Origin: Asticcacaulis endophyticus
Lineage (GTDB): Bacteria; Pseudomonadota; Alphaproteobacteria; Caulobacterales; Caulobacteraceae
Assembly: GCF_014652575.1 (NCBI RefSeq)
Contig: NZ_BMZB01000001.1
Span: 1,541,722 to 1,605,721, forward strand
Reading direction: 5' to 3'
DNA length: 64,000 bases
Shown here: positions 4,544 through 35,513 of the stretch, piece after piece
Numbering within the stretch: position 1 is the first letter of the stretch
How the letters are laid out: every line of letters starts with the position of its first letter
Notes under the pieces: model-generated
Told to the model about the DNA's origin: nothing
What the model saw: only the letters and a program-made list of their open reading frames with translations
Databases searched by the model: none
Position numbers and translations under genes: made by a program

Positions 4544-5017
4544 CTAGATCCATTCGACCTTGAGGATCTCATAGGCCTTGACGCCACTGGGGGTCGGGAC
4601 TTCGACGACATCGCCGACTTCCTTACCCATCATGGCGCGCGACAGCGGTGAGGTCAGCGAAATCTTGCCCGATTTGACATCGGCCTCGTGCTCGCCCACC
4701 ACCTGATAGCGGCCTTCTTCTTCGGTGTCTTCGTCAACGACGGTCACGGTCGCGCCGAATTTGATATTCTCACCCGACAGCTTGGTCACGTCGATGACCT
4801 GAGCGCGGCTGATCTTATCTTCGATCTCAGCGATTCGGCCTTCGATCCAGCCCTGACGCTCCTTGGCGGCGTGGTATTCGGCGTTTTCAGACAGGTCGCC
4901 GTGCTCGCGCGCCTCAGAGATCGCCGCAATTACCGTCGGACGCTCAATAGACTTCAAACGCTTCAATTCTTCGTCGAGGGCGCGATAGCCTTCGCCCGTC
5001 ATCGGCACTTTTTCCAT
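4544..5017 (-). CDS. greA: Transcription elongation factor GreA
   Basis: 157 residues. GreA enters the secondary channel of RNA polymerase and stimulates cleavage of backtracked RNA. The N-terminal coiled coil carries the conserved [18 protein letters not shown] stretch, with the acidic tip residues D and E, followed by the FKBP-like C-terminal domain ([14 protein letters not shown], then the VPTPSG loop). The start at 5017 gives [14 protein letters not shown], which aligns with known GreA N-termini; an in-frame ATG 39 bp upstream would add an unmatched leader. It is followed by two hairpin repeats and the ELM1-like gene. Confidence 0.96.
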
Positions 5018-5247
5018 GTGCGATTGATTTCTTAAATGCACCCAGAGGAATAACAAAAAATTTCACGTCCGGTCGAGGGTGCCTACGACCGAAGTGAAAA
5101 GATAGATACGGTTTATGCCGGTTGCAAGCGATCTTCGTGCCGAAAACTCGATAAAGCACAAAGGGTGTTTTGATCCGGGGCGGCGTTATATCGTGTTTTG
5201 CCGGAAGGTTAAACCCCTTAAATTGCGGGGGCCTTAAGGCTATGATT

Positions 5248-20994: not shown

Positions 20995-21026
20995 CCTCAA
21001 AGGATTAAAAACTCAATCCTTTGAGG
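20995..21026. terminator. Stem-loop after pgk
   Basis: A perfect 12-bp stem (CCTCAAAGGATT / AATCCTTTGAGG) with an 8-nt loop, 24 bp beyond the pgk stop. There is no T run on the minus strand, so it may stabilise the mRNA end or attenuate read-through into fba rather than terminate fully. Confidence 0.5.
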
Positions 21027-21049
21027 TGGTTAACTGTATGACCTGCGTT

Positions 21050-22246
21050 TTAGCCGTTCAAAGCTGCCACACCGGGTAATTCTTTGCCTTCCATCCATTC
21101 AAGAAACGCGCCACCGGCGGTCGAGACAAACGTCATGTCGTCGGAAACACCGGCGTGGTTGAGGGCTGCGACCGTATCACCGCCACCGGCAACGGCGGTC
21201 AGAAGCTTGGCCTTGGTTTGCGCTGCCGCAAAATGCGCGGCCTCAACGGTAGCTTTATCAAATGGTGGCAATTCAAATACGCCCAAAGGGCCATTCCAAA
21301 TAAGGGTTTTAGATTTAGAAATCGCGTCTTTCAGAATATCCACGGTCTTCGCACCTGCGTCAAATATTTTATCGTCAGGGGTGAGCGCCTCATCAATCGA
21401 GATTTCGCGCGACGGGGCGTGGGCCTTGAATTCCTGGGCCACGACGACATCTACCGGCAGCAGGATCTCGCAGTGGTTTTCATCGGCCAGCTTCATGATT
21501 TCGCGCGCGGTGTCGGCCATGTCTTTTTCACACAAGGACCCGCCGATGTCGTAGCCGAGGGCATAGAGGAAGGTGTTGGCCATGCCGCCGCCGATCGACA
21601 GGGTATCAAGACGGGTGACGAGGTTTTTCAGCAGATCAAGCTTGGTCGAAACCTTTGAGCCGCCGACAATGCCGATAACCGGACGCACCGGCGTGCCAAG
21701 GGCGGCATCAAGTGCTTCCAACTCACGGCGCATGGACTCACCCGCATAGGCCGGGATCAGGTGGGCCACGCCTTCGGTCGAGGCGTGGGCGCGGTGGGCG
21801 GCGGAAAAGGCGTCATTGACATAGATGTCGCCCATAGCGGCCAACTGTGCGGCAAACTCAGGATCGTTTGTCTCTTCGCCGGCATGGAAGCGGACATTTT
21901 CCAGCAGGATCACGCCGCCATTGGCCATATTGGTGATCAGGGCCTTGGTGGCATCGCCCACGCAGTCATCGCTGAGCGATACGGGCGCACCGATCAGGTT
22001 CGACAGGGCCGGGGCCACAAACGCCAGGCTCATTTCCGGCACGACCTTGCCCTTGGGCCGGTCAAAGTGAGCCAATAGGGCGACCTTCATGCCTTTGGCG
22101 GTCAGTTTCTGGATGGTCGGTAAGGCCACGCGAAGGCGGGTGTCGTCGGTGATTGTGCCGCCATCGACGGGTACGTTGAAATCAACCCGCACCAGCGCGG
22201 TCTTACCGGCTACGTCTTTGAGGCTGTCTAGGGTTTTGAAAGGCAT
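21050..22246 (-). CDS. pgk: Phosphoglycerate kinase
   Basis: 398 residues. It transfers phosphate between 1,3-bisphosphoglycerate and ADP. The N-terminal substrate motif RVDFNVP is followed by the basic-patch [20 protein letters not shown], and the C-terminal nucleotide-binding [13 protein letters not shown]. The ATG at 22246 gives MPFKTLDSL; one 12 bp upstream at 22258 adds only MRYS, and GAG lies at a better distance from the downstream codon. It lies between gap and fba; the 169-bp gap to gap holds a family 1 hairpin and a 28-bp palindrome, so some transcripts may end between the genes. Confidence 0.97.
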
Positions 22247-22328
22247 GGAATATCTCATTCAAATGGATTGGGCTGACCTGAGTGGCAAGCTAAATTCAGA
22301 AAGATTTGATGTATATCTCAATAAAGCT

Positions 22329-22363
22329 AAAAAGTTCCGAAGGGCCGCCCCAAGGAACTTTTT
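22329..22363. repeat. Variable-arm hairpin, family 1 (copy B)
   Basis: Perfect 10-bp arms AAAAAGTTCC / GGAACTTTTT around the core GAAGGGCCGCCCCAA. The core matches copy A (4449-4483) in 13 of 15 bases, whereas the arms are unrelated in sequence. It lies between gap and pgk. Confidence 0.8.
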
Positions 22364-22384
22364 CTCCGTATCGGCAAGGGGGTA

Positions 22385-22412
22385 CATGGGGGAAAACCGG
22401 TTTTCCCCCATG
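22385..22412. terminator. 28-bp perfect palindrome after gap
   Basis: A perfect self-complementary sequence running from CATGGGGG to CCCCCATG with AAAACCGGTTTT at its centre. It starts 3 bp after the gap stop codon and would form a strong hairpin; there is no T run, so attenuation or mRNA stabilisation is as likely as termination. Confidence 0.6.
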
Positions 22413-22415
22413 ATC

Positions 22416-23438
22416 TTACAAGTATTTCCCAAACGCCACAGCCGTGTCGGCCATGCGGGTCGAAAAGCCCCATTCGTTGTCGTACCAGGTCAGGATGCGC
22501 ACGAACTGACCGTCGATCACCTGCGTCTGGTTAAGCGCAAAGGTCGAGGACGCCGGATTGTGGTTGAAATCCGAAGATACCAGCGGCTCATCCGTATAGG
22601 CCAGAACGCCCTTCATCGGGCCATCAGCGGCAGCGATGATGGCGGCGTTGACTTCTTCCTTGGTGACCGGGCGCGACGGCACGATCTTGAGGTCAACGAC
22701 CGACACGTTCGGGGTCGGCACGCGGATCGAAGACCCGTCGAGCTTGCCCTTAAGGTGCGGCAGCACCAGGCCAACAGCCTTGGCGGCACCGGTCGAGGTC
22801 GGGATCATGGAAAGGGCTGCGGCGCGGGCGCGGTACAGGTCCTTGTGCATGGTATCGAGCGTTGGCTGATCACCGGTATAGGAGTGGATGGTCGTCATGT
22901 AGCCGCGCTCAATGCCGCACAGGTCGGATAAGACTTTGGCGACCGGTGACAGGCAGTTGGTGGTGCAGGATGCGTTGGAGATCACCACATCATCAGCGCT
23001 TAAGGTGTCATGGTTGACCCCGTAGACGATGGTCTTGTCGGCATTGTCGCCGGGGGCGGAGATAATGACCTTCTTGGCGCCGGCTTCGATGTGGGCCAGA
23101 GCCTTGTCCTTGGACGTAAAGATGCCGGTGCACTCAAAAGCGATATCGACGTTCAGCGCTTTGTGCGGCAATTCAGCCGGGTTCTTGATGGCGGTGACCT
23201 TAATGGGCGCATAGGTGCGGCCATTGGCGTTGATCAGGATAGAGTCGCCTTCGACCTTGACCTCGGCCGGGAACTTACCGTGCACCGAATCGTAGCGCAG
23301 CAGGTGGGCATTGGTTTCCACCGGCCCCAGATCGTTGATCGCCACCACTTCGATATCCGTGCGGTTATTCTCGATGATCGAGCGCAGAACCAGACGGCCG
23401 ATGCGGCCAAACCCGTTAATCGCAACACGTAACGCCAT
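22416..23438 (-). CDS. gap: Glyceraldehyde-3-phosphate dehydrogenase, type I
   Basis: 340 residues. It oxidises glyceraldehyde-3-phosphate to 1,3-bisphosphoglycerate with NAD(P). The Rossmann motif is NGFGRIGRL at residues 8-16, the catalytic Cys is in [10 protein letters not shown], and the C-terminal WYDNEWGFS completes the active site. A glycine-rich acidic residue for NAD preference cannot be assigned confidently. Upstream on this strand is the two-component system; the 164-bp gap contains a LacI-type inverted repeat. The gene is followed by a 28-bp palindrome, a hairpin repeat and pgk. Confidence 0.97.
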
Positions 23439-23561
23439 ATTTAGCTTCCCTTATAGTAGATTTTGAAACCGTCCTGACGGGCGGAAGCGTAGATCAAATG
23501 CGGGTTTCGTTTTGGCCCAAACCCCTGACAAGTCAAGACCTAATCGGCCCTAACGGCTATA

Positions 23562-23575
23562 TGATAACGCTATCA
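23562..23575 (-). promoter_or_regulatory. Candidate LacI-family operator upstream of gap
   Basis: TGATAACGCTATCA, an inverted repeat about a central CG with six of seven pairs matched, 124 bp upstream of the gap start. It resembles the sites at 971-984 and 34530-34543. Regulator and function are inferred from symmetry only. Confidence 0.35.
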
Positions 23576-23602
23576 ATGGGTTTCAACAGGCGCGCTTGCG
23601 AC

Positions 23603-25141
23603 CTAAAGGCGCGGCAGGGTGAAGATGGCATCCAGACCGCTTAAAATCCCGCCTTCGTAGCGGTTCTCAAGGCGCAGACTACCGTGCATCGACAGGCTTA
23701 AGGATTGCGCGACCGATAGCCCCAGACCTGCGCCGCCGGTATCGCGGTTGCGGGAGGTCTCCAGCCGGTAGAACGGCTCAAAAACGGCCTCAAGCGCCTC
23801 AGTCGGCATGCCGGGGCCGTGGTCGCGGATAACGACCTCGGCCATGTTTTCACGCGCCCGCAGGATCACCTCACAACCGTCACCGTAGCGGCAGGCGTTT
23901 TCGATCAGATTGGTCACAATGCGACGAATGGCCATGTCATTACCCAGCACGGTGATGTTTTCAGCAATGTCACCGCAGGTGACGTCGTGAATGTCGGCAT
24001 TGTCTTCGCACACGATCTCGATCAGGGACGACAGGTCAAGCCGGGTCAGGGTTTGCGCCATTTTCTCAGCGCTGGCGAACCCAAGTGCTGAATTGATCAG
24101 GCTGTCCATGTGGGCGATGTCCTGATTGATCTTATCGCGGGCGGATTCCGGCAGGGTTTCAATCCGCAGACGCAGACGGGCCAGCGGTGTCTTCAGGTCG
24201 TGGGCAATGGCGGCGATCAGGGCGGTACGCGATTCGACCTGTTTTTTCAGCCGGATCTGCATGTCGTTCAGTACATGGGTCGCGGCGCGCACTTCCTTGG
24301 GGCCGCGGGCTTTCAGGGGGGCGGCATCTGCGTCAAAGCCCAGTGTGCGCGCCCCTTCGGCCAGAGCGCGGATCGGGCGCGTCAGGCGGCGCGACATGAA
24401 AAAGGCCAGCGGCGTGACCGCCAGCGCGGTCAGCAAAAACCCGACCAGCAGGTTTTTCTGCCACGGCTCAATCAACGGGCGCGGCGGGATCAGGACGCGC
24501 CAAGTACCATCGGTTTGCTTCCATGCGGCCCGAAAGGCCGGGAAGGTCACCTGAGTGTTCAGACTTTCCGGCAGTTCCGATGCGCGGAAATCAGGGCCGA
24601 TCATTCTGAGATTATCACGCGGGCCATCGGAACCCATATTACGCGGCGGCCCATCCGGCCTCGCAAATTTTGGCCCGCCTTCCGGGCCTCTGTTTTGCGG
24701 CCCTTCCGGGCCGGGCGCCATCCAGCGCTGGGGGCCAGGACCACCGAAGCCGTTACGACCACGCTGACGGCCATCGATAAAGACATTCGTTACCGGCACG
24801 CCCAGAATTGTGGCCAGACGTTCGCGCAAGAAAGTTTCAAACGGATGAGACCGACCGGGGTCTGCCAACTGGCGGGCAACAAAGTCAGGCGTTTCAGCCA
24901 CCGTTTCCATGCGCAAGTTGCGTCCGGTTTTCAGCTTGACCTGCCCGGTTTTCAGGGCTTGCGCCGCTTCGGTCAGGGTATAGCCCTGCGGCGGTGGGGA
25001 CGGGGCTTTGAGCACAATCAGGGTGTTGATCGCCAGCGACAGGACAAGCACCGCCAATGCCATGCCCAGCACCTGCCAGAAAATCGGCAGATCCGGAAAA
25101 AAGCGTGAGGTTTTAGGCGGTGCAGCCTTAAGGTCGGACAT
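23603..25141 (-). CDS. Two-component sensor histidine kinase
   Basis: 512 residues. A first membrane segment (about 22-44), a periplasmic domain to about 228, a second membrane segment (about 230-250), HAMP (RRLTRPIRALAEGARTL), then the HisKA domain with H314 in AIAHDLKTPLARL and a HATPase_c domain (NLIENACRYG, DHGPGMP, GGAGLGLSVA). The periplasmic part has an unusual Gly/Pro-rich insert (about 124-175) of repeated GPEG-like units. It overlaps nothing and follows the response regulator by 9 bp, so the two form an operon. HK and regulator resemble EnvZ/OmpR-type pairs, but the signal is unknown. Confidence 0.93.
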   Translation of the reverse strand: MSDLKAAPPKTSRFFPDLPIFWQVLGMALAVLVLSLAINTLIVLKAPSPPPQGYTLTEAAQALKTGQVKLKTGRNLRMETVAETPDFVARQLADPGRSHPFETFLRERLATILGVPVTNVFIDGRQRGRNGFGGPGPQRWMAPGPEGPQNRGPEGGPKFARPDGPPRNMGSDGPRDNLRMIGPDFRASELPESLNTQVTFPAFRAAWKQTDGTWRVLIPPRPLIEPWQKNLLVGFLLTALAVTPLAFFMSRRLTRPIRALAEGARTLGFDADAAPLKARGPKEVRAATHVLNDMQIRLKKQVESRTALIAAIAHDLKTPLARLRLRIETLPESARDKINQDIAHMDSLINSALGFASAEKMAQTLTRLDLSSLIEIVCEDNADIHDVTCGDIAENITVLGNDMAIRRIVTNLIENACRYGDGCEVILRARENMAEVVIRDHGPGMPTEALEAVFEPFYRLETSRNRDTGGAGLGLSVAQSLSLSMHGSLRLENRYEGGILSGLDAIFTLPRL

Positions 25142-25150
25142 ATTTAAGGG

Positions 25151-25894
25151 TTACTTCAAGGGCCTGAACATATAGCCAATGCCGCGAATGGTGCGGATGA
25201 TCTCATCCTGCGTGTCGTCGTTGAGCTTGCGACGCAAACGGCTGATCTGGACATCGATGGCGCGGTCAAAGCTTTCGGAGTTGGGGCCGTGCAGGTAGTC
25301 AAGGATCTGGTCGCGGCTCAAGGCGCGGCCCGGACGGTCGAGGAACACCCGCAACAATTCAAACTCGGCATTGCTAAGCGCCACCTGCACGCCATCGGGG
25401 CGGATCAGAATGCGCTTGATATTATCAAGCTGCCAGCCAAAAAAATGTGTGATGGGTGAGGTGCCGTCCTGGCGCGGACCCTGCTCACCACGGCGCAGGA
25501 TGGCACGGATGCGCGCCAGCAGTTCACGCGGATGGAACGGTTTGGCCAGATAATCATCGGCCCCCAGTTCCAGCCCCACGATCCGGTCGACCTCTTCGGC
25601 GCGGGCGCTGAGCATGATCACTGGCGGGCCCTTGGCGGCATTCAGGCGTCTGCAGATCGACAGGCCGTCTTCGCCCGGCATCATAAAATCAAGCACCACC
25701 AAATCAATATCGCCGCGCATCAATACACGATCCATTTCGCGCGCGCCGGACGCGGTATGTATTTCAAAACCATGCTGACCCAGAAAGTCGGATATCAGGT
25801 CGCGCAGTTCCCGGTCATCATCGACCACCAGCAGGCGTGACGTCTTGATCGACGGGGTGGCGGTAGAGGCGGATGCCGAAGCGGTCTGGGTCAT
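25151..25894 (-). CDS. OmpR-family response regulator
   Basis: 247 residues. The receiver domain has the acidic pocket VVDDD, phospho-acceptor D69 in VVLDFMMPG, a conserved Ser in MLSARAE and Lys in YLAKPF. The C-terminal winged helix carries LSNAEFELLRVFLDRPGRALSRDQIL and the recognition region FDRAIDVQISRLRRKL. A Ser/Thr/Ala-rich N-terminal extension of about 18 residues precedes the receiver. It is transcribed ahead of the cognate histidine kinase with a 9-bp gap. Targets cannot be told from sequence. Confidence 0.95.
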   Translation of the reverse strand: MTQTASASASTATPSIKTSRLLVVDDDRELRDLISDFLGQHGFEIHTASGAREMDRVLMRGDIDLVVLDFMMPGEDGLSICRRLNAAKGPPVIMLSARAEEVDRIVGLELGADDYLAKPFHPRELLARIRAILRRGEQGPRQDGTSPITHFFGWQLDNIKRILIRPDGVQVALSNAEFELLRVFLDRPGRALSRDQILDYLHGPNSESFDRAIDVQISRLRRKLNDDTQDEIIRTIRGIGYMFRPLK

Positions 25895-25993
25895 GTGCTT
25901 GCCGTGGGTTCGCGGTCGTTGGGAGTATATCCGCTTATGACCGTCATGTGGGGCAATAAGATTTCACGATTGTAACATAACCGATGCCACGGG

Positions 25994-26704
25994 TCAGGAT
26001 ACACTTCGCGCCAGCAGTTTCTGGATATCCTCCGGCGTCAGTATCCGCCACTGACCGGGTTTGAGGTCACCTAGGGTCAACTCACCCATGCGGGCGCGGT
26101 GCAGGGTCTCAACATGGTTGCCTACGGCGGCAAACATCCGGCGCACCTGATGATAGCGGCCTTCATAGAGCGTAAGACGAGCTGTGGTCTCACCGGTGAC
26201 CTCAAGAAATGCCGGTTTAAGCGGCTCTTTTTCGGCTTCCAGCAACAGGGTGCCGGATTCAAATATCGCCCCTTCATGACCGTTCAGCGGACGGGCCAGC
26301 GTCACCTCATAGACCTTGGGGACATGGTTTTTGGGAGAGATGATCCGGTGCAGGAAATCGCCGTCATCGGTAAACAGCAGCAGCCCCGACGTATTGGCGT
26401 CCAGCCGTCCGATGGTCGACAAAACCGGCTTACGATCCCTGAAACGGGCGGGCAAAAGCTCATAAACCAACTGGCCGGTGTCCTTGGTCGAGCAGACATA
26501 GCCCACGGGTTTGTGCATCAAAAGCACCACGCCATGATCGGGATCGAGCGGGCGGCCCTTGTAGCGGACATCGTCATGGGCGATTTTGGCGTCGTCGCTC
26601 AGCCGCTCACCGTCGGTATCGGCGAACACGCCCATGCGGATCAGTTTCTGCACATCCTTGCGCGAGCCATAGCCGAGATTGGCGAGGTGTTTCACGAGGC
26701 GCAT
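25994..26704 (-). CDS. rRNA pseudouridine synthase, RsuA family
   Basis: 236 residues. It isomerises a uridine in rRNA; members of this family modify U516 of 16S rRNA or sites in 23S rRNA. A shortened S4 RNA-binding domain (RLVKHLANLGYGSRKDVQKLI) precedes the catalytic domain, with the catalytic D102 in GRLDANTSGLLLF and the late GRYHQVRRMFAAVGNHV motif. The start overlaps the stop of the upstream methyltransferase gene by one base (TGATG), so the pair is translationally coupled. The exact target position is not determinable here, hence no symbol. Confidence 0.92.
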   Translation of the reverse strand: MRLVKHLANLGYGSRKDVQKLIRMGVFADTDGERLSDDAKIAHDDVRYKGRPLDPDHGVVLLMHKPVGYVCSTKDTGQLVYELLPARFRDRKPVLSTIGRLDANTSGLLLFTDDGDFLHRIISPKNHVPKVYEVTLARPLNGHEGAIFESGTLLLEAEKEPLKPAFLEVTGETTARLTLYEGRYHQVRRMFAAVGNHVETLHRARMGELTLGDLKPGQWRILTPEDIQKLLARSVS

Positions 26705-27840
26705 CAGGATCTGCGCCTTAAGGTTTCGCCTTGTGAGACCTTTTTATTGTCTGGCACATCGCGCTTTGAGAATTTTTTATCCTCGGACGCCTCATGTTTC
26801 CGGGGTTTTTTCTTTACCGGAGCCTCACTCATTGAGGATGCTTCAAACACCTTGTAGGCCCCATCATCGGCCAGTATTTTGACGACCTTGAACACGGTTT
26901 TGAGCGTGTCTTCGTAAGGTAAATGCCGGTTGGCGACCATGTAGAACGCGCCCTTGGGCTTAAGGGCCGCCGCCGCAGAACGAATGAAGGCCTTGCCCAG
27001 ATCGTGCTTATCGGCGCGGTCGATATGGAACGGCGGGTTGGAGACGATAAAATCGAAATCGCCGCCGATCCCAGAGGTGACATCCTGCCAGTGGTAATCG
27101 ACGGCCAAGCCTGTGAGGTTCTGACGGGCCAAGTCTAGCGCGCGCTGTTCGGCTTCAAACACCTCCATTTTGGTGACCGCCGCATTGCGGGCCATGATCT
27201 CAGCCGTCAGATAGCCAAATCCGGCACCCAAATCCGCGCCGTGGCCGCTCAATGGCGGCAGGTTTTGCACCAACAGTTTTGAGCCCGCATCGATCCGATC
27301 CCAGGCAAACAGGCCGGGGCGGCTTAGGAACCGACCGCCCTCAATCGGGCGCACGGCGTCCAGTTTTGACCAGGCGTCAATCAGATCGCGATTGAGTTTA
27401 CCGGCGTTTATGCGCGCCCAGAATACGCGGCATTTGTGTTTCGACAGGTTGGAGATATCACCGGTTAAGGCCTTGAGGTCGCCCTCAACCGTCTTGGCGC
27501 CTTCAAGGTTCGACACTGATGCCATGACAATGCCACCGTCAGCCGTGGATAAAACCGCGCGGGCCAGCAGGGCTCGATATTCGTCACGCTGACGCGGCGG
27601 CAGGACGAGGGTGAGGGGGTAGAGTGCATCATCCTCTTCGGGACGGGCGCTAAAGCCCTGTTGCGTCAGGGCTTCCAGCGCCGGTTTGAAGCTCTGCTCG
27701 CACACTAATTTCTCGCGGTAATCGCGCAGGGCCAAACCAGCCCGCGCCCGCAGGAACAAAGCTTTGCCATCCGCAGGCAGATCAACAAGGCCATCATTAA
27801 GCGGCAGGACGAGGGTATCTAAAACAGGATCATTCATCAT
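26704..27840 (-). CDS. Class I SAM-dependent methyltransferase, RsmC-like
   Basis: 378 residues. The C-terminal Rossmann domain has the SAM-binding GADLGAGFGYLTAEI and the N-methyltransferase signature NPPFH (IVSNPPFHIDR), as in RsmC/RlmG enzymes that methylate a guanine N2 in rRNA. The N-terminal half is a degenerate second copy of the fold, as in RsmC. The last 40 or so residues (KKKPRKHEASEDKKFSKRDV) are a Lys-rich tail not typical of the family, perhaps an RNA-binding addition. It is coupled to the pseudouridine synthase gene by a one-base stop/start overlap, which supports an rRNA-modification role. Confidence 0.85.
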   Translation of the reverse strand: MMNDPVLDTLVLPLNDGLVDLPADGKALFLRARAGLALRDYREKLVCEQSFKPALEALTQQGFSARPEEDDALYPLTLVLPPRQRDEYRALLARAVLSTADGGIVMASVSNLEGAKTVEGDLKALTGDISNLSKHKCRVFWARINAGKLNRDLIDAWSKLDAVRPIEGGRFLSRPGLFAWDRIDAGSKLLVQNLPPLSGHGADLGAGFGYLTAEIMARNAAVTKMEVFEAEQRALDLARQNLTGLAVDYHWQDVTSGIGGDFDFIVSNPPFHIDRADKHDLGKAFIRSAAAALKPKGAFYMVANRHLPYEDTLKTVFKVVKILADDGAYKVFEASSMSEAPVKKKPRKHEASEDKKFSKRDVPDNKKVSQGETLRRRS

Positions 27841-27882
27841 GCGCGCCCTATGGCATAGGGGGCTGGAAATTAATAGCCCGGA

Positions 27883-28557
27883 TTAGTGACCAAGATAGCG
27901 CTGGGGCTTATGGTAAGTCATCATGACGGTGCTCATGGCCGCGGCACTGATGACCGAATAGAGCAGGTTCATGGGGCTGACCACAAAGACCGAAGCCGTC
28001 ATGATCAGGGCGTCGCACACCGCTTGAGTCTTACCGGCGTTAATCCCGCGCGTCTTTTGCAGATAGAGCGACAATACGCCGGTGCCGCCCGCCCCGGCAC
28101 CATGCCGGGCCAGCGCTAAAATCCCCATGCCGATAATTGTCCCACCAAAAATGGAGGCAAAAACCGGATTAAGGTGCGCGGGCGTAAACAGGTGCGGAAA
28201 CAGGGCGGCCATCGCCATGATAGCGATATTGACCACGATCGTCTTGACCGTAAACCGCCAGCCCATGCTCAGCAGGGCAAATATAAAGAACGGCACATTG
28301 ATCAGCGTAAACAAAAGTCCCACCGGTGCCGGGATCAGATAGGACACCAAAAGCGCAATGCCGGCCACGCCGCCGGTCACAAGCCCCGCCGTCTTAAGCA
28401 GCACCAGCCCCAGCGCTATGAACGAGCAACCAATGGCGAAGGCATAGATGTCTTCAAACAGGGTGTGTTTGGCCTGCGCTTTAAGCCCCTGATCGTCCAG
28501 GATGGCCGATGATCGGGATAAATCTTTCGGCAAAAGGGAGCGAAGGCTGAAGGTCAT
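27883..28557 (-). CDS. YitT family (DUF161) membrane protein
   Basis: 224 residues with five or six transmembrane segments between about 36 and 210. The signature GLVTGGVAGIALLVSY near residue 60 and the glycine-rich GGTIIGMGILALARHGAGAGGTGVL stretch identify the YitT/DUF161 family, whose transport function is not known. The N-terminus (about 30 residues) is cytoplasmic and charged. It is 42 bp downstream of nothing on its strand except cspA beyond a strong terminator, so it likely has its own promoter in the 150-bp gap. Confidence 0.85.
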   Translation of the reverse strand: MTFSLRSLLPKDLSRSSAILDDQGLKAQAKHTLFEDIYAFAIGCSFIALGLVLLKTAGLVTGGVAGIALLVSYLIPAPVGLLFTLINVPFFIFALLSMGWRFTVKTIVVNIAIMAMAALFPHLFTPAHLNPVFASIFGGTIIGMGILALARHGAGAGGTGVLSLYLQKTRGINAGKTQAVCDALIMTASVFVVSPMNLLYSVISAAAMSTVMMTYHKPQRYLGH

Positions 28558-28650
28558 ATCGTGGCGCGCTTATATTCGGGTGAGTTGTTGCGCGGAATGA
28601 TAGTTTCAAACGATATTTTTTCAAGCGCCATAACCGTCAGCATGGCAATA

Positions 28651-28682
28651 AAAAAGGCCGCTCCCGAAGGGGCGGCCTTTTT
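28651..28682. terminator. Terminator downstream of cspA
   Basis: Stem AAAAAGGCCGC / GCGGCCTTTTT (11 bp) with a 9-10 nt loop. It ends the minus-strand cspA transcript; the A/T flanks make it usable on both strands. Confidence 0.85.
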
Positions 28683-28706
28683 CGAAACATCTAAGCTTTT
28701 AAAAGC

Positions 28707-28916
28707 TTATGCGTTTTCCAGCTTCTCAGCCGACATCTTGCCGGACTTAGGATCGCGAGCCAGCTCGTAAGACAGCTTTTGACCTTCGTTAAGGCTGCGG
28801 AAACCCGCGCGCTCAACGGCCGAGATGTGAACGAAGATGTCGTTCGAACCGTCTTCAGGGGCGATAAAACCGTAACCCTTGGTGGCGTTGAACCATTTTA
28901 CTGTGCCTGTGCTCAT
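28707..28916 (-). CDS. cspA: Cold-shock protein, CspA family
   Basis: 69 residues forming one cold-shock domain. RNP1 is KGYGFIAPE and RNP2 is DIFVHISAV; the protein melts secondary structure in mRNA as a chaperone. The ATG at 28916 (MSTGTVKWFN) follows AAAGGG at a normal distance; an upstream in-frame codon at 28931 adds only MKGFV. The transcript appears to have a leader of about 145 nt from the promoter at 29069-29095, as in thermoregulated csp genes. An 18-bp palindrome (28692-28709) overlaps the stop codon. Confidence 0.95.
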   Translation of the reverse strand: MSTGTVKWFNATKGYGFIAPEDGSNDIFVHISAVERAGFRSLNEGQKLSYELARDPKSGKMSAEKLENA

Positions 28917-29068
28917 GACGAACCCTTTCAATGACAGTGTTTATACGCACATCCGCAAAATCGCGTCGTGCCTCGCTCGTTTCGATAATTGAATGGAAGT
29001 TCGCCGATACGGTTTTTAGTGAAACCGCAAAAACAAATTAGCAGACAAGTTATAGATCGAAGGCCCCT

Positions 29069-29095
29069 TGTATAGCTTTAAATCCATAAGGTCAA
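29069..29095 (-). promoter_or_regulatory. Predicted promoter of cspA
   Basis: On the minus strand TTGACC (29095-29090), 15 bp, then TATACA (29074-29069). The spacing is short by 2 bp, which often marks regulated promoters. It implies a 5' leader of about 145 nt. Confidence 0.5.
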
Positions 29096-29136
29096 ATTAA
29101 TAAGCCATGTGGTTTTTTATCTATTTGTCATCGGCC

Positions 29137-29176
29137 AAAAAAAAGCGCGAACGGTAAAGACCGTCTGCGCTTTTTT
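29137..29176 (-). terminator. Terminator of tkt
   Basis: AAAAAAGCGC...ACGGT / ACCGT...GCGCTTTTTT stem with a 4-nt loop, 21 bp after the tkt stop; T-rich edges on both strands. Confidence 0.8.
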
Positions 29177-29196
29177 ATTCAACAGATTCAGTAGGC

Positions 29197-31191
29197 TTAT
29201 AAAGCGGCCAAGGCTTTTTCGACTACGGCCTCTTTGGTGATGCCAAATTGTTTATAGAGCACATCCTGCGGTGCGGAGGCCCCAAACGAGGTCATGCCGA
29301 CAAAAATACCGTCCTTACCGATAAATTTTTCCCAGCCCAAGGACACCGCCGCTTCGACCGCGACATTGACCGGTGTGGTGCCGATGACCGAGGCTTTGTA
29401 GGCAGCATCTTGCGCATCAAACAGTTCCCAGCACGGGGTCGATACGACGCGGGTCGCAACACCTTGGGCCTCAAGCTCTTTCTGGGCGGCAATGGCGACC
29501 GAGACTTCGGTGCCGGACGCGAAGATCGAGACCTTAGCCTCAGAAGAGGCAGAACGGATCTCATAAGCGCCCTTGGCCGACAGGTTGTCGCCACTTTCGC
29601 GGGCGGCAGGCACTTTTTGACGCGACAGCACCATCAGCGACGGTGTGGTTGTCGATTTCAGCGCGGCCTTCCAGCATTCGGCGGCTTCGACGACATCGGC
29701 GGGGCGGAACACCAGAAGGTTCGGCATGGCGCGGAACGACGCCAGATGCTCGACGGGTTGGTGGGTCGGGCCGTCTTCGCCGACGCCGATGGAATCATGG
29801 GTCAGGACGTTGATGGTGCGGATGCCCATCAGCGCGCCCAGACGAATGGCAGGGCGGCTATAATCCGAAAACACAAAGAAGGTGCCGGAATAGGGGATGA
29901 CCCCGCCGTGCAGCGCCATGCCGTTCATGGCGGCCGACATGCCGAATTCACGCACACCGTAGTGGACGTAACGACCACCGTAGTTTTCGGTGTCGTAAGC
30001 CGTCATACCCTTGACGAAGGTGTTGTTGGAGCCGGTAAGATCGGCCGAGCCGCCCACCATGTCATCGATATGGGGCACCAGTTGCGCTAACGCCGCGCCC
30101 GAAGCCGAGCGGGTGGCATCAGCGGGCTTGATCTCTAACGCTTGCGCAATGTGGGCATCAAGCGCGTCAAAGGCATTGGCCGGCAGTTCGCCGTTCATGG
30201 CGCGTTTGAAGTCAGCGGCGTGGGCGTGGCTTTTCAGTTTGGCGTCCCAGTCCTTGTGCGGGCGGGCTTGTCTGCGGGCCGCAGCTTCCCAGGCCTTTTT
30301 GATTGGCGACGGCACGGTGAAGGATTCGGCTTCCCAGCCCATCGCCTTGCGCGCCAGTTCGATGTCGGAATCAAACAGAGTATAGCCGTGGGAATGCGGA
30401 TCGCCTTCCTTGGGGCCAGCACCCTTGGAAATCTTGGTTTTGCAGGCGATCATGACCGGCTTTGATTGCTGCGTCGCCCAGCGCAGGGCGGCGGCGATCT
30501 TACCGTGATCATGACCATCAACGGCCTTGACGGCCCAGCCAGCGGCCTTAAAGCGCGCCAGTTGGTCGCCGGTCTCAGCGATGGTGGCCACGCCGTCGAT
30601 GGTGACATTGTTGTCGTCCCACAGCACGATCAGCTTATTGAGCTTTAACCGTCCGGCCAGCGAGATGGCTTCGTGCGACACGCCTTCCATCAGGCAGCCG
30701 TCACCGGCAATCACCCAGGTCTTATGGTCAACCAGATCGTCGCCAAAACGGGCGTTCAGATGACGCTCAGCCATCGCCATGCCGACCGCGGTCGCCAGAC
30801 CTTGACCCAGTGGGCCGGTTGTGCATTCGATGCCCGCCGTGTGGCCATATTCCGGGTGGCCGGGCGTGGCTGAGCCCCACTGGCGGAAGTTTTTGATGTC
30901 GTCCATCGACACCGACTTAAAGCCGGTCAGGTGCAGCAGCGAATAGATCAGCATCGAGCCGTGACCTGCTGACAGAACAAAGCGGTCGCGGTCAGCCCAA
31001 TCCGGGGCCTTGGGGTCATATTTAAGAAACTTGGTCCACAAAACGGTCGCCACATCGGCCATGCCCATCGGCATACCCTGATGGCCCGACTTGGCGCGGT
31101 GCACCGCTTCCATCGACAGGACCCGCACGGCATCGGCCATGACGGTCGGTGAAGGCTTGGCGGTCAGGGTGCTGAGTATATCTGAAGACAT
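29197..31191 (-). CDS. tkt: Transketolase
   Basis: 664 residues. It moves two-carbon units between sugar phosphates in the non-oxidative pentose-phosphate pathway, using thiamine diphosphate and a divalent metal. Seen are the substrate His region RAKSGHQGMPMG, the TPP/metal motif GDGCLMEGVSHEA, and the second-domain GVREFGMSAAMNGMALHGG with the catalytic Glu. It heads the sugar-phosphate block (tkt, then gap, pgk and fba downstream after intervening genes on the same strand). The start at 31191 is an ATG followed by SSDILSTL and matches family length. Confidence 0.97.
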   Translation of the reverse strand: MSSDILSTLTAKPSPTVMADAVRVLSMEAVHRAKSGHQGMPMGMADVATVLWTKFLKYDPKAPDWADRDRFVLSAGHGSMLIYSLLHLTGFKSVSMDDIKNFRQWGSATPGHPEYGHTAGIECTTGPLGQGLATAVGMAMAERHLNARFGDDLVDHKTWVIAGDGCLMEGVSHEAISLAGRLKLNKLIVLWDDNNVTIDGVATIAETGDQLARFKAAGWAVKAVDGHDHGKIAAALRWATQQSKPVMIACKTKISKGAGPKEGDPHSHGYTLFDSDIELARKAMGWEAESFTVPSPIKKAWEAAARRQARPHKDWDAKLKSHAHAADFKRAMNGELPANAFDALDAHIAQALEIKPADATRSASGAALAQLVPHIDDMVGGSADLTGSNNTFVKGMTAYDTENYGGRYVHYGVREFGMSAAMNGMALHGGVIPYSGTFFVFSDYSRPAIRLGALMGIRTINVLTHDSIGVGEDGPTHQPVEHLASFRAMPNLLVFRPADVVEAAECWKAALKSTTTPSLMVLSRQKVPAARESGDNLSAKGAYEIRSASSEAKVSIFASGTEVSVAIAAQKELEAQGVATRVVSTPCWELFDAQDAAYKASVIGTTPVNVAVEAAVSLGWEKFIGKDGIFVGMTSFGASAPQDVLYKQFGITKEAVVEKALAAL

Positions 31192-31407
31192 GGGCGGGTC
31201 TCGAAAAACGTGTAAAAGCGGGAATCCGCAAGCGGATTAATGAATTTGTCGCTGCCTTTAACGCATGCGCGCGGGTAAGGGTATAGCTTCTTTTGAAAAA
31301 ATACGTCTTTTCGTTTAGACTCTTTAGGTCATTATCGGTTATGTAAAGTGTTTTCAGAGGCATATGGCCCCAAAGTTCAGTCAAGACTTCAGACGAGAGT
31401 TCAGGTG

Positions 31408-31704
31408 ATGGATAATCCTCTTACCCCCCCACAGGCTGGACAGCCCGGTTCGATGCTAACCGGTGCGGTTGAGCGGCTGGATAAGGCCCTGCTGGCGGTG
31501 GAACACCGTTTGAGTATGCTGCAACACGGTGATGTGTCGTTTCCGGCGGATGGAGTTTTGCCCGATGCCATGCTGTCAAAAGAACTGGAAGAGACCAAGG
31601 CGCGCGAAAAGGCTGTGACCGATGCCGCCAATGGCGCATTCGAGGCGCTGGGCGAAGCGGCGGCCTCTATCCGTAAAATTCTCAAAGACGGGGAGGCTGC
31701 CTGA
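31408..31704 (+). CDS. zauP: ZapA-upstream coiled-coil protein ZauP
   Basis: 98 residues, acidic, with a continuous helical heptad pattern (GAVERLDKALLAVEHRLSML near 26-45, then LSKELEETKAREKAV near 65-80) that predicts a coiled coil. In Caulobacter crescentus the short coiled-coil protein encoded just upstream of zapA, ZauP, is needed with ZapA to focus the Z-ring; position, size and coiled coil all match, so the symbol is assigned by synteny. The ATG at 31408 follows an AGGTG site; an upstream in-frame ATG lacks one. The stop overlaps the zapA start by one base (TGATG). Confidence 0.8.
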   Translation: MDNPLTPPQAGQPGSMLTGAVERLDKALLAVEHRLSMLQHGDVSFPADGVLPDAMLSKELEETKAREKAVTDAANGAFEALGEAAASIRKILKDGEAA

Positions 31705-32036
31705 TGGCTGAGGTCACGGTTCGCGTCAACAATAAGCCCTATACGGTTGGCTGCGCTGATGGTCAGGAAGGCCGCGTGCAGGAACTGGCCCGCCTGTTTG
31801 ATGAGCATGTCGAAATGGTTGTGGGCGATGTCGGCTCGATCGGGGAGGTGCGCCTGTTTTTGATGGCGGCGTTGCTGATGATCGATGAGATGCAGGACCT
31901 TAAGGTTCAGCTTGAGGAACAGCAATCGGCCACAGCGCGCATGTCGGCGGGAGCCCATGAAATGGAACGCCGCGCCGCCTTTGCGATTACCGACGCGGCC
32001 GAACGGTTGGAAAAACTGGTCGCAGATAAAGCTTAA
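31704..32036 (+). CDS. zapA: Cell division protein ZapA
   Basis: 110 residues. ZapA binds FtsZ and cross-links protofilaments in the Z-ring. The N-terminal beta-rich domain (VTVRVNNKPYTVGCADGQEGRVQELARLFDEHV) is the family signature; the C-terminal helix from about residue 50 forms the tetrameric coiled coil. It is translationally coupled to zauP by a one-base overlap. It ends in a strong terminator shared with the convergent GH3 gene. The usual order zapA-6S RNA-cyclo-ligase is interrupted here by that GH3 gene. Confidence 0.93.
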   Translation: MAEVTVRVNNKPYTVGCADGQEGRVQELARLFDEHVEMVVGDVGSIGEVRLFLMAALLMIDEMQDLKVQLEEQQSATARMSAGAHEMERRAAFAITDAAERLEKLVADKA

Positions 32037-32038
32037 AA

Positions 32039-32077
32039 ACAAAGGAACTCCCCCTAATGTAGGGGGAGTTCCTTTGT
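32039..32077. terminator. Bidirectional terminator between zapA and the GH3 gene
   Basis: A perfect 18-bp stem from ACAAAGGAAC to GTTCCTTTGT with a 3-nt ATG loop and CCCCC/GGGGG at its upper half. It begins 3 bp after the zapA stop and ends 2 bp before the GH3 stop, serving both convergent genes. Confidence 0.85.
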
Positions 32078-32078
32078 C

Positions 32079-34367
32079 TTACTTGCCCTGCACGTTTAGC
32101 GTCCGTTCCGGCAAGGTGACGGTGACCGATTGTCCGGCATCGGTGGCGGATTTTGCCAGCGAGACCTTGTAATCCCCCGCCGCGATCTTCCAGGTCTTAG
32201 ACGGCGTATCGTATGACCCCAATAGACGCGGATCGACCGTCACGGTCAGGGTTTTTGACGACCCCGGCGTCAGATTGACCTTATCCCAGCCGCCGAGGCG
32301 TTTCGGTGCTTCCCACTTAGCGGTCGTGGGCGAGACATAGACCTGCGGCACATCGGCGGCCTCGACCTTACCGGTATTGGTTACCGTGAACGACACGCTC
32401 AGTTTGCCGTTCGCGTTCGAAGCCTTCAAATCCGAATAGGCAAAGGTCGAATAGCTCAGACCGTGCCCAAAGGCGAACAGCGGCTTATGGCCTTTGAGGT
32501 CGAACCACTTATAGCCAATGGCCGCCCCTTCGATGTCATAGTTCACATCGACACGCAGGTCAGGCTTTGAGTTGTCGCCATCAAGCTTGGGGCGGGGCAA
32601 CTGGCTAAGCGACGCCGGGAAGGTGACCGGCAGGCGGCCCGACGGTGAGATTTCGCCGGTCAGGACGCGCGCAAGGGCGGTGCCGCCGCTGGAGCCGGGA
32701 TACCAGGCCTCAACCACCGCGCCGACCTTAGGCAGCCACGGCATGAACACTGGCCCGCCGGTTTGCAGCACGACCACGGTTTTGCTGTTGGCGCGGGCAA
32801 CGGCATCGATCAGGGCATCGCCACCGTGATCGAGCTTTAGCTCGGCATCAAAGGACTCGCCCGTCCACTGGGAGCCGAACACGATGACCACATCAGCCCC
32901 GCGCGCAGCTTTGGCGGCAGCCTTTACGTCCTTGCCGTCGTGGAAAACAACCTCGGCCTTGGTGCGGGCCCTGATCCCGGCCAGAGGGGCATCGGGGTAA
33001 TAGGTGATCGGGCCGGGGAACTCATTGGCGTATTTTGAGGTATCGGGCACAGCGTTTCCGCCGAGACCGTAAACCTGCGACGAGCCACCGCCCGACAGCA
33101 CGCCCTTATCGGCATGGCCACCGATGACCACGACTTTCTTGGCCGTGGCGGCGATCGGCAGCAGGTTGCGTTCATTCTTCAGCAGCACGATCCCACCTTC
33201 GGCATCGGCCTGAGTGACCTTGGCATTCGCGGCAAAGTCGATATTGGCGTCGCTAACGGTGGTCTGATCAATCGGCTTATCAAACAGACCCGTGTTAAAC
33301 ATAGCCCACAGGATGCGGCGCGCCATATCATCGAGGCGTTCAGGCTTTACAAAGCCATTATCGACAGCTTCTTTGAGCGGACCCGCGAAATAGTTGGATT
33401 TGTCGAACGGATAGCCAGACTGCTGATCCATGCCGGCATTGGCGGCGGGGATAGTGGAGTGGGTGGCGCCCCAGTCCGACATGACATAGCCTTTATAGTT
33501 CCAGTCGGTTTTCAGAACTTCGGTCAGGAGGTACGGGTGTTCGCAGGCATAGACGCCGTTGTAGCGGTTATAGGCGCACATGACCGAGGCCGGGTTGCCA
33601 ACCTCAATCGCAAACTGGAACGCCAGCAGGTCGGACTCGCGCGCGGCCTTATCAGACATATTGGCCGACAGGGTGAAGCGGTTGGTTTCCTGAGCGTTGG
33701 CGGAATAGTGCTTGACGGTCGAGATGATGTTGTTGGATTGGATGCCGCGGATCTGTTCCCCGACCATGATCCCGGCCAGCAGCGGGTCTTCGCCGCCATA
33801 TTCGAAATTGCGGCCGTTACGCGGTTCACGCACCAGATTAACGCCGCCCGCCAGTTGGACGTTAAAGCCCGACAGGCGCGCTTCCTTACCGATCATCGCC
33901 CCGCCTTTGAAGGCCAGATCGCGGTCCCACGTCGCGGCGGTCAGCATCCCTGACGGTAAAACGGTGCGCAGGCGCGGATTTGGCCCGCGCTGAGAGGCGA
34001 CGCCTACACCGGCGTCGGTCAGCCACTGATGGGGTATCCCCAGACGCGGCACGCCATACACAAACCCGGCGGATTGATGCAGGCTTTCCTTCGGCGGGCT
34101 CCAGTTCAGGCCATTGATATCGCCGCGGGTATTAAGCCAGGCGCCGTCCGATGCGAAATGTCCGAACACCAGGGTAAACTTTTCACTTTGCGTCATTTCT
34201 TTGAGCAATTGCTCGACGCGGGCGTCGGCGCTTTGGTTGGCATTCAGCCACGGCTTTTGCGCCGGTTCGGCCAGTGCGGCGGGGGCGGGCGTCTGTGCCT
34301 GCGCGGGCAGGGTAAAGCTTAAGGTCGCCGCTGAGGCCAGCAGGGCCAGTTTGATGGAAATTCGCAT
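32079..34367 (-). CDS. GH3 beta-glycosidase (beta-glucosidase or beta-xylosidase), periplasmic
   Basis: 762 residues from the ATG at 34367, which opens a signal peptide (MRISIKLALLASAATLSFTL, cut after AQA) and follows AAGGGACG. The GH3 N-terminal barrel has the KHY substrate motif (STVKHYSANAQE) and the nucleophile about D298 in GYVMSDWGATHS; the C-terminal domain (GGHADKGVLSGGGSSQV) and a terminal fibronectin III-like domain (FTVTNTG...ADVPQVYV) complete the usual three-domain form. It removes single beta-linked sugars from oligosaccharides. The upstream operator resembles the xylanase one, so xylo-oligosaccharides are plausible. It stands between zapA and 6S RNA, where a gene is not usually found. 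Confidence 0.93.
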   Translation of the reverse strand: MRISIKLALLASAATLSFTLPAQAQTPAPAALAEPAQKPWLNANQSADARVEQLLKEMTQSEKFTLVFGHFASDGAWLNTRGDINGLNWSPPKESLHQSAGFVYGVPRLGIPHQWLTDAGVGVASQRGPNPRLRTVLPSGMLTAATWDRDLAFKGGAMIGKEARLSGFNVQLAGGVNLVREPRNGRNFEYGGEDPLLAGIMVGEQIRGIQSNNIISTVKHYSANAQETNRFTLSANMSDKAARESDLLAFQFAIEVGNPASVMCAYNRYNGVYACEHPYLLTEVLKTDWNYKGYVMSDWGATHSTIPAANAGMDQQSGYPFDKSNYFAGPLKEAVDNGFVKPERLDDMARRILWAMFNTGLFDKPIDQTTVSDANIDFAANAKVTQADAEGGIVLLKNERNLLPIAATAKKVVVIGGHADKGVLSGGGSSQVYGLGGNAVPDTSKYANEFPGPITYYPDAPLAGIRARTKAEVVFHDGKDVKAAAKAARGADVVIVFGSQWTGESFDAELKLDHGGDALIDAVARANSKTVVVLQTGGPVFMPWLPKVGAVVEAWYPGSSGGTALARVLTGEISPSGRLPVTFPASLSQLPRPKLDGDNSKPDLRVDVNYDIEGAAIGYKWFDLKGHKPLFAFGHGLSYSTFAYSDLKASNANGKLSVSFTVTNTGKVEAADVPQVYVSPTTAKWEAPKRLGGWDKVNLTPGSSKTLTVTVDPRLLGSYDTPSKTWKIAAGDYKVSLAKSATDAGQSVTVTLPERTLNVQGK

Positions 34368-34463
34368 GTGTTTCGCGTCCCTTGGTAGATCGTTAGGTTG
34401 ATCAGTGTCGGCATTATTATTTTGGTTGGTGAAAGTCATAAAACGGGATTTCGTGTCTGTGAA

Positions 34464-34478
34464 GTCATAATTTATGAC
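34464..34478. promoter_or_regulatory. 15-bp palindrome in the GH3 upstream region
   Basis: GTCATAA-T-TTATGAC, perfect arms of 7 bp around one base, 97 bp before the GH3 start. It may be a second operator; nothing else supports a function. Confidence 0.3.
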
Positions 34479-34529
34479 ATCGATGTCTTTTTTATTGACT
34501 TGCGGCTCCACGGTTTGTCTCTGACGGGA

Positions 34530-34543
34530 CGTTATCGCTACCA
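34530..34543 (-). promoter_or_regulatory. LacI-family (XylR-like) operator upstream of the GH3 gene
   Basis: CGTTATCGCTACCA, two mismatches from the remembered Caulobacter XylR site TGTTAGCGCTACCA, 163 bp upstream of the GH3 start. Similar sites precede the xylanase (971-984) and gap (23562-23575). Confidence 0.45.
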
Positions 34544-34575
34544 TTTCGGGACATGAAATAATAAAATCCACACTC

Positions 34576-34604
34576 TTGCCGATGTGGGCCCAAGGCCTTA
34601 CATT
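34576..34604 (+). promoter_or_regulatory. Promoter of 6S RNA
   Basis: TTGCCG (34576-34581), exactly 17 bp, then TACATT (34599-34604). Transcription would begin near 34610, at the first base of the closing stem of the RNA. Confidence 0.6.
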
Positions 34605-34608
34605 AATC

Positions 34609-34784
34609 GGTGGCGGGTCTTGCTGCGGTTCACGTCAGTGATCACCTAATCCTTCTGACCTTAATCTCTTAGAACGGGGGCTGTCCCTGACTGAGACCGT
34701 GGTCTCTATCACATGGCTCCCACCTGACTAGTCAGGTCCTGAGTGGATTTAAACGCTTCGCAACGGATCTCGCGGCGCCGCCAC
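34609..34784 (+). ncRNA. ssrS: 6S RNA
   Basis: About 176 nt directly upstream of 5-formyltetrahydrofolate cyclo-ligase, the conserved proteobacterial position of 6S RNA. The ends pair: GTGGCGG near 34610-34616 with CCGCCAC at 34778-34784, then GCTGCG with CGCGGC across a small internal loop. The interior leaves a large open region flanking a G/C-rich terminal arm (GGGGGCTGTCCC to GGCTCCC), as expected for the open-promoter mimic that sequesters sigma70 RNA polymerase. A well-placed promoter sits upstream. No covariance search was possible, so the family call rests on synteny, size and the closing stem. Confidence 0.7.
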
Positions 34785-34796
34785 AGAATACTTACT

Positions 34797-34841: not shown

Positions 34842-34853
34842 TTTCAACATGGA

Positions 34854-34888
34854 GAAAATTTTCTAAGGGCGGCCCTTCGAAAATTTTC
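34854..34888. repeat. Variable-arm hairpin, family 1 (copy C, inverted)
   Basis: Arms GAAAATTTTC on both sides (a self-complementary decamer) around a core that reads GAAGGGCCGCCCTTA on the minus strand. It lies 12 bp from a family 2 member, repeating the pairing seen at 4449-4537. Confidence 0.8.
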
Positions 34889-34898
34889 ACTTTTTATA

Positions 34899-34952: not shown

Positions 34953-35513
34953 GTGACAGCCGATAAATCCCTATTACGCGCGGAGATGAAATCCCACCGG
35001 GCGGTGCTGGCTCAGGCCGATCCGACCGCAGGCGACCGGCTGACCCACATGGCTGATATTGATGCCGTGGGCGTTGTTGCCGGTTACTGGCCCATTCAGT
35101 CCGAATTATCGCCCCTGCCATTGATGCAAAAGCTATCGGAGCAGGGCTGCGCGCTGGCCCTGCCGTGCCTGATCCCGGCGGAGGGTGGCGGCTATGTCAT
35201 GGCCTTTCGCCGCTTTGAGCTGGGGGATCATCTGGAACTCGGCCCCTATGGCATCAGCCAGCCCGACGCCGATAAGTCCATGATTCTGCCGGATGTCGTG
35301 CTGGTGCCGCTGTTGGCTTTTGATCGTAAGGGCGGCCGGCTGGGCTATGGCGGCGGGTTTTACGATCGCGCTTTGGACTTTCTTAAATCGCAAAAAGAGA
35401 TTAAAGCGTGGGGCATTGGCTTTGCGGGGCAGGAACTCGACGAAGTGCCGTTAGAACCCCACGATCAGCGCCTTGACCTTATCCTGACGGAAGCGGGTGC
35501 TATCCATATATAA
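34953..35513 (+). CDS. 5-formyltetrahydrofolate cyclo-ligase
   Basis: 186 residues. It converts 5-formyl-THF to 5,10-methenyl-THF with ATP, salvaging folate. The signature GGRLGYGGGFYDRAL near residue 130 and the preceding DVVLVPLLAFDRKGGR identify the family, and the N-terminal LLRAEMKSHRA matches its Lys/Arg nucleotide site. The start is taken as the GTG at 34953, which gives the normal family length; the frame runs open upstream to 34743 only because it crosses repeats and the end of 6S RNA. Its ribosome binding site is supplied by a repeat element. ymdB-like and yebC follow. Confidence 0.9.
   Translation: MTADKSLLRAEMKSHRAVLAQADPTAGDRLTHMADIDAVGVVAGYWPIQSELSPLPLMQKLSEQGCALALPCLIPAEGGGYVMAFRRFELGDHLELGPYGISQPDADKSMILPDVVLVPLLAFDRKGGRLGYGGGFYDRALDFLKSQKEIKAWGIGFAGQELDEVPLEPHDQRLDLILTEAGAIHI

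Follow-up and report, generated by a model that had tools for sequence, protein, structure and literature searches.

The hairpin at positions 22,329-22,363 of the window (the whole stretch of DNA analysed, 64,000 nt long) belongs to a family of intergenic elements that we read, with about even confidence, as clade-specific and terminator-like, marking transcript boundaries; the loop would be constrained in sequence, and the stem would need only to pair. This reading overlaps with one of RNA processing discussed below, and the probabilities assigned to the explanations do not sum to one.

Structure of the hairpin and its loop

The three hairpins (hp1) listed in the initial annotation were confirmed, both in their coordinates and in their arms; the third was found to sit on the opposite strand.

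22329..22363, plus strand: hp1 at the gap/pgk junction, arms AAAAAGTTCC/GGAACTTTTT, loop GAAGGGCCGCCCCAA
4449..4483, plus strand: hp1 behind greA, arms AAAAGCTGGC/GCCAGCTTTT, loop GAAGGGCCGCCCCTA
34854..34888, minus strand: hp1 behind 6S RNA, arms GAAAATTTTC, loop GAAGGGCCGCCCTTA (minus strand)

The arms of the copy at 4449 extend to 11 bp; the folding z-scores of the three window elements, both strands considered, ranged from -3.1 to -6.8. The stretch between the arms had been described as a constant 15-nt core. It is indeed nearly invariant, but it is not a plain core: it folds further, and a second hairpin with variable arms then follows. The 15 nt form a structured loop composed of GNN, a 3-bp helix, a tetraloop (mostly CCGY) and NA, where core positions 4-6 pair with positions 11-13 and enclose the tetraloop. 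In a set of 90 copies the inner helix was GGG/CCC with tetraloop CCGC (75 copies) or CCGT (4 copies); the rarer inner helices were GAG/CTC (5), GAA/TTC (3) and other combinations (3). The inner helix is supported because the changes in it are two-sided.

Core position 1 was G in 78 of 80 elements, and position 15 was A at all 47 places picked by the 12-mer described below. CG was present at core positions 8-9 in 90 of 96 copies, a set that demanded G1, A15, inner pairing and arm pairing and whose loci were mostly fetched with the core. Several of the parsers accepted only elements with certain loop letters or with enough paired arm positions; the pattern used for the sets of 75 and 80 elements itself demanded A15 and, for the 80-element set, CG at positions 8-9 as well, so A15 and CG are uninformative in the sets parsed in this way. 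One arm survey parsed 75 of 112 loci; the 80-element survey left out eight loci without a parse.

Pairing and covariation of the arms

The window contains the 12-mer GAAGGGCCGCCC exactly three times; in the 3.95-Mb genome there are 11 copies, as compared with a single occurrence of the reversed control pattern. That the arms differ between copies and are complementary nonetheless was borne out for all 11 genomic copies: the inner 10 pairs are fully Watson-Crick in 10 of them, and the exception, L009/L022, contains one G.T and one T.T. In these 11 copies, for which the 12-mer was the sole criterion of choice, standard pairs filled 95.5% of the pair cells, against 67.0% in shuffles, and 42 cells were two-sided, against 11.4 in shuffles; none of 500 shuffles was as high on either measure. 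Shifting the partner by one column lowered the pairing to 57-62%. All 11 arm positions covary and the loop positions are fixed, which fits the earlier proposal that the arms are selected only for pairing around a constant core. In a larger set of 27 copies there were 130 two-sided cells against 36; entry into this set required 9 or more of 10 arm pairs, hence its 97.6% pairing is partly built in, and a measure of further pair types in it was no better than in shuffles (204 of 500 were as high). A covariance model (R2) detected 28 copies in the genome as a whole.

Non-complementary flanks at other copies had been proposed as a sign of chance or of ordinary repeats. Exact matches to the 12-mer were considered at 49 distinct places (complete for the own genome and, for the relatives, among the matches listed); 46 of them had at least 8 of 10 pairs, one had 7 pairs and two were unpaired, while only 76 of 20,000 random places reached 8 of 10. 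Relaxing the core to GNNGGGCCGCCCCNA gave 131 places, among which 100 were paired, 3 partly paired and 28 unpaired. The latter 28 places could be taken as a hint that unrelated hairpins happen to have a GC-rich word in common, and such words do recur (the window contains 23 matches to the 12-mer with up to two mismatches, where 13.3 are expected); this explanation, however, is already refuted by the counts of pairing and covariation given above, and its probability is negligible.

The two-hairpin unit

Inspection of 25 copies in the own genome revealed that hp1 is half of a two-hairpin element, about 110 nt long, the second hairpin being variable in its arms as well. In gene sense the order is as follows: stop codon or end of a stable RNA, second hairpin, a linker like GGTTCAATATCGA, hp1, a dinucleotide (e.g. 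GC) and a U-rich run; in the 25 copies the linker joining the two hairpins resembles TCGATATTGAACC. A second-hairpin stem score of at least 24 was reached in 62 of 80 elements as compared with 11 of 160 random windows. The majority of second hairpins have AAAARYGTAY...AACTTTT around an inner stem and make two classes; others have CATGGGGGAAA...TTTCCCCCATG, the query locus among them, and some are without a common motif. The second hairpins of the window copies are:

22385..22412, no strand given: second hairpin, class C, CATGGGGGAAAACC/GGTTTTCCCCCATG, between hp1 and the gap stop codon
4498..4537, plus strand: second hairpin, class B, AAAAGTATT...AAAACTTTT, between hp1 and the greA stop codon
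34797..34841, minus strand: second hairpin, class B, between the 6S RNA and hp1

On the outer side of hp1, read outward, T was found with frequencies 0.81, 0.96, 0.75, 0.65, 0.64 and 0.53 at six positions (80 elements); the other side is the linker, which is only partly conserved.

Second-type hairpins of class A also exist elsewhere without hp1 (L205-L209, L212); the class A motif AAAGTACNNTGAGCG has 16 exact genomic matches, eight of which were read. In the window, a second-type hairpin with no fixed loop upstream stands before yebC (36388-36432), and the same yebC place in relatives (L068, L170, L298) carries hp1 with the fixed loop.

Location at gene ends

The window copies follow gap (before pgk), greA and the 6S RNA gene (before the 5-formyltetrahydrofolate cyclo-ligase gene). 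The neighbouring genes are:

22416..23438, minus strand: gap, type I GAPDH (TIGR01534 above cut-off), 3 nt from the stop codon to the second hairpin
21050..22258, minus strand: phosphoglycerate kinase-like gene, next downstream of gap; sole match the Pgk/Tpi fusion model PRK13962, below cut-off
4544..5056, minus strand: greA, transcription elongation factor GreA, stop codon adjoining the element
34617..34782, plus strand: 6S RNA (RF00013, 44 bits, under the gathering score of 46.4), 3' end facing the element
34980..35513, plus strand: 5-formyltetrahydrofolate cyclo-ligase, after 6S RNA (TIGR02727; coordinates of the stretch translated)

The longest-ORF start of the pgk-like gene is 70 nt from hp1. 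The 6S RNA has a DNA match in all 25 genomes of the genus; its gene is flanked by a glycoside hydrolase-like gene and the cyclo-ligase gene. The longest version of the minus-strand ORF at 3395-4489 begins upstream of hp1; translation probably starts near 4421, past hp1, and 3395-4420 gave no NCBIfam match. Another dispersed repeat (CTCCCCCAGCACGCTGGGGGAGGTGGCAGCC...), with many matches in the genus, adjoins the element at 34900-34960. A long near-perfect palindrome with 21-nt arms (32036-32080), at the end of the 32079-34571 gene, is not of the hp1 family.

Twenty of the 28 copies in the own genome lie behind the stop of a protein gene, with the stop codon 60-84 nt from the core end; one copy lies behind 6S RNA, one behind tRNA-Val, five before a gene start, and one (L525) is without assignment. 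Four of the 20 protein-gene copies were assigned by hand; L504, L509 and L526, each with a competing ORF of greater length, were decided via codon-position GC and stop distance, and L031 and L037 were placed from sequence and orthologues. Of the five reversed copies, one precedes atpG, a name taken from its reading frame, one a ferredoxin-like gene, and two precede other genes; the fifth, identified by eye, stands before a tRNA-fMet-like start beside an rRNA operon. At L521 (1255-1635) the 5S gene of an rRNA operon is followed by an ordinary terminator-like hairpin, then by the element and, at the locus end, by what resembles a tRNA-fMet start. Gene names used for the remaining loci (atpA, atpD, purC, efp, cydB, ilvC, dnaJ etc.) were read from translated ends rather than taken from database calls. 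Raw automatic placement put 56 of 75 elements behind a gene end and 48 of 75 between co-directional genes; this automatic orientation has errors at short or RNA genes, and the 28 own-genome copies are preferred. Elements were also found between convergent genes.

Distribution and evolution across the genus

With model R1 (E ≤ 0.01) matches were found in 20 of 25 genomes of the genus, 0 to 23 copies each, and in none of 36 genomes outside it, of which 12 belong to the family and 24 to the order. Model R2 found one or two copies in G002, G014, G018 and G022, and none in G006, G009, G016 and G024 nor in nine genomes of other genera.

The 3' ends of gap and greA were fetched through the gene, without use of the core. 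Inspected by eye in the 25 genus genomes, the gap 3' end carries the element in 4 genomes, an ordinary GC-hairpin with A-/U-tracts in 17 and another hairpin in 3, with none noted in 1; hp1 forms were seen, also by eye, at the 6S RNA 3' end in 6 of 25 genomes. The standard loop is present behind greA in 10 of 25 genomes (G000, G001, G003, G005, G008, G010, G012, G013, G019, G020); G023 has an extended loop there, and G015, G024 and G002 have a paired hairpin with another 15-nt loop. The greA arms AAAGACTTGC of G024 and G002 are common to most of the standard-loop genomes. The second hairpin at greA is of another class in G001, G005 and G010.

In ten element-poor relatives the gaps at atpA/atpG, atpD/atpC and purC/purS are ∼0-25 nt, among the matches listed; the element lengthens the gap in these operons of the own genome. 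The distance between compared flanks at atpA/atpG is 30 nt in G004 versus 152 nt in G000. At the same junction hp1 and the second hairpin carry three different arm sets in G000, G008 and G017; G003, G012 and G013 are without hp1 and keep a hairpin in the second place. At efp, ilvC, dnaJ, cydB and other loci of the ten relatives other hairpins or repeats are often seen, among the matches listed; the efp site of G002 has an hp1-like hairpin with loop GAAGACGCGCTTCGA.

The initial annotation had also suggested that the arms are replaced as a unit, and comparison of orthologous copies supports this idea. Among 35 core-chosen comparisons with flanks at least 94% alike, 25 had no two-sided arm change, one had a single change and nine had three or four; in total, 32 two-sided changes were counted against 5 one-sided ones. 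The corresponding numbers for lower flank identity were 27 versus 11 (88-94%), 64 versus 5 (80-88%) and 30 versus 4 (70-80%); the comparisons overlap in loci and genomes. A wider set of 43 orthologous comparisons, where at least 8 of 10 pairs were demanded, had 48 two-sided and 7 one-sided changes. Judged from these alignments, arms change in blocks with pairing retained. In many such cases the linker and the U-rich side are altered as well; at efp (L008 versus L202) three arm pairs differ, with the linker and the second hairpin nearly unchanged.

The companion suggestion, a mobile core that targets local inverted repeats, was unsupported, since the linker, the second hairpin and the U-rich side are part of the unit and orthologous copies persist between species; the lack of near-identical copies at different loci among 127 elements, and of PF01797 (to which the transposase search was confined) in element-rich genomes, likewise speaks against it. 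It was rejected as the main story on account of the two-hairpin unit and the orthologous copies. One greA result does lean toward it, namely that G024 and G002 keep the arms with other 15-nt loops, and through this result it is retained as a minor possibility.

It is rather unlikely, in our view, that the element is a selfish or passive repeat, dispersed in the manner of REP/BIME/MITE sequences: a two-module mosaic inserting behind genes, in which pairing would be preserved by a mobilising enzyme that reads the folded strand. Such a repeat would explain why gene junctions that are narrow in relatives contain the element here (as at atpA/atpG), why the two modules vary separately (loss of hp1 at atpA/atpG, change of second-hairpin class at greA), how opposite orientations arose at the ferredoxin site in G000 and G003, and why distribution inside one genus is patchy. 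The comparison of sister sites proposed earlier, made at nine loci with up to five close relatives, did reveal filled and unfilled sites; the boundaries, however, were too diverged for a target duplication to be read. Moreover, near-identical copies at different loci were absent among 127 elements (nothing above 88% over at least 80 nt, the maximum being 93% over 54 nt), and both the persistence of orthologous copies between species and the strong bias to gene 3' ends speak against a repeat of this kind. PF01797 (Y1/RAYT transposase), to which the search was confined, had no match in the own genome and was absent from all eight genomes with at least 15 copies; it was present in 4 of 25 genus genomes (G007, G009, G014 and G020), with 0, 0, 1 and 8 R1 copies, the 8 being those of G020. 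A RAYT/REP system was rejected on the ground of this absence from element-rich genomes.

Block-wise changes of arms with few one-sided intermediates, together with the scarcity of G.U pairs (1 of 121 arm cells in the 11 copies; 14 of 1020 in the core-selected set), would also be expected if a single-stranded DNA hairpin were formed from the core strand in replication, recombination or an attC-like reaction, its arms being kept or rewritten by template switching from one arm to the other. If anything, wobble pairs lean to the mostly antisense strand, with G.T 12 versus A.C 1 at loci picked with a model of that same strand and 27 versus 13 in the second hairpin; this leaning is to the core strand though the genes are mostly on the other strand. 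It is weak in the core-picked set (14 versus 8). The DNA hairpin, which we regard as improbable, leaves unexplained why elements sit at gene ends and why the U-rich run has a polarity.

Possible roles in termination and RNA processing, and proposed recognition of the loop

Three features favour a terminator-like 3'-end element: most copies follow stop codons or stable RNAs, the U-rich run has a polarity, and there is exchange with ordinary terminators. The hairpin lies directly behind gene 3' ends, as an intrinsic terminator requires, in 20 of 28 copies plus those of 6S RNA and tRNA-Val; in the 5 of 28 reversed copies the U-rich side faces upstream, which counts against termination. Copies within operons that are tight in relatives count against full termination, as the next gene would lose transcription; insertion into operons therefore favours attenuation or RNA protection. 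A home-made U-tail score did not separate the two directions (of 124 elements, 55 scored better in gene sense, 14 the same and 55 worse), and hp1 was missing on both strands from the output of a simple terminator scan of 21,000-38,500 that admits loops of 3-8 nt. The frequency of G.U pairs given above is low for an RNA helix and counts against this reading, as does the weak leaning of wobble pairs to the mostly antisense strand.

We infer that the element is transcribed and that it acts in termination or RNA protection. It would end or attenuate transcription and protect the RNA made before it against 3' exonucleases, so that the gene in front of it (gap, atpD, purC, 6S RNA, tRNA-Val) would be expressed more than the next gene, or apart from it. 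The loop would be bound by a protein or RNA, the stem being free in sequence provided that pairing holds. As a plain terminator does not need a constraint on loop sequence, recognition by protein or RNA most likely holds the loop fixed; a fast-folding motif is a possible alternative cause.

One could also think of mRNA processing and stability with little true termination: RNase E would cut the AU-rich linker, after which the second hairpin would guard the 3' end of the upstream piece, and hp1 the 5' end of the downstream one. The succession of hairpin, linker and hairpin between co-directional genes (48 of 75 in the raw placement) is in line with this scheme, and so are the copies after atpA and atpD, which encode three-copy subunits, and at the gap/pgk junction; precedents are described in PMC5927463. 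On the other hand, elements occur at the ends of 6S RNA and tRNA and between convergent genes too, and the linker is only partly conserved. We consider processing of this kind possible, at clearly less than even confidence.

More tentatively, and as an unlikely extension of the terminator-like reading, an RNA-binding factor may read G-NN-[3 bp]-CCGY-[3 bp]-NA on any perfect stem and thereby set 3' ends and operon stoichiometry at ∼28 sites, with the genus swapping whole hairpins at fixed junctions and keeping the loop.

Relation to known systems and significance

No known RNA family could be assigned, as Rfam gave no match in the whole window at gathering threshold and, at ten element loci with E ≤ 5, eight matches none of which was on the element (one chance-level match, E 0.2, begins beside one). 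Among the papers listed for the core letters and related words, none described the element.

Like intrinsic terminators, the element is a hairpin with A-rich/U-rich sides behind stop codons and stable RNAs, and at gap it occupies the place that in most genomes of the genus belongs to an ordinary terminator-like hairpin; unlike them, it has a near-fixed structured 15-nt loop at ∼28 loci, is a two-hairpin unit, often resides inside operons and has its U-run a few nt off the stem. REP/BIME elements with RAYT resemble it in being dispersed intergenic hairpins of mosaic make-up, and the element was confined to one genus in our survey; its arm sequence, in contrast, is not conserved between copies, and PF01797 is missing from element-rich genomes. 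In integron attC sites, as in the element, structure is conserved rather than arm sequence. Copies of the Neisseria DNA-uptake sequence number hundreds or more, against ∼28 copies of the element; the repeated word makes the stem there and the loop here. That a repeated word can build terminator hairpins in Neisseria is described in PMC2267715. Intercistronic stabilising hairpins, of which papBA is an example, can set unequal expression between genes of an operon, according to PMC5927463, and we propose that the element may work like intrinsic terminators and such stabilisers. These hairpins are single loci, whereas the element is a family with a constant loop. The puf operon is another case of intercistronic stabilising hairpins.

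To our knowledge, hairpins of terminators and operon junctions are normally treated as sequence-free in both stem and loop. A family that keeps the loop and rewrites the stem at gap-pgk, ATP synthase, greA and 6S RNA would separate the roles of loop and stem. If the tentative idea of a loop-reading factor were true, control through the loop would operate at gap/pgk, atpA/atpG, atpD/atpC and 6S RNA; such a loop-keeping family also leads one to expect a factor that binds the loop and could be isolated directly.
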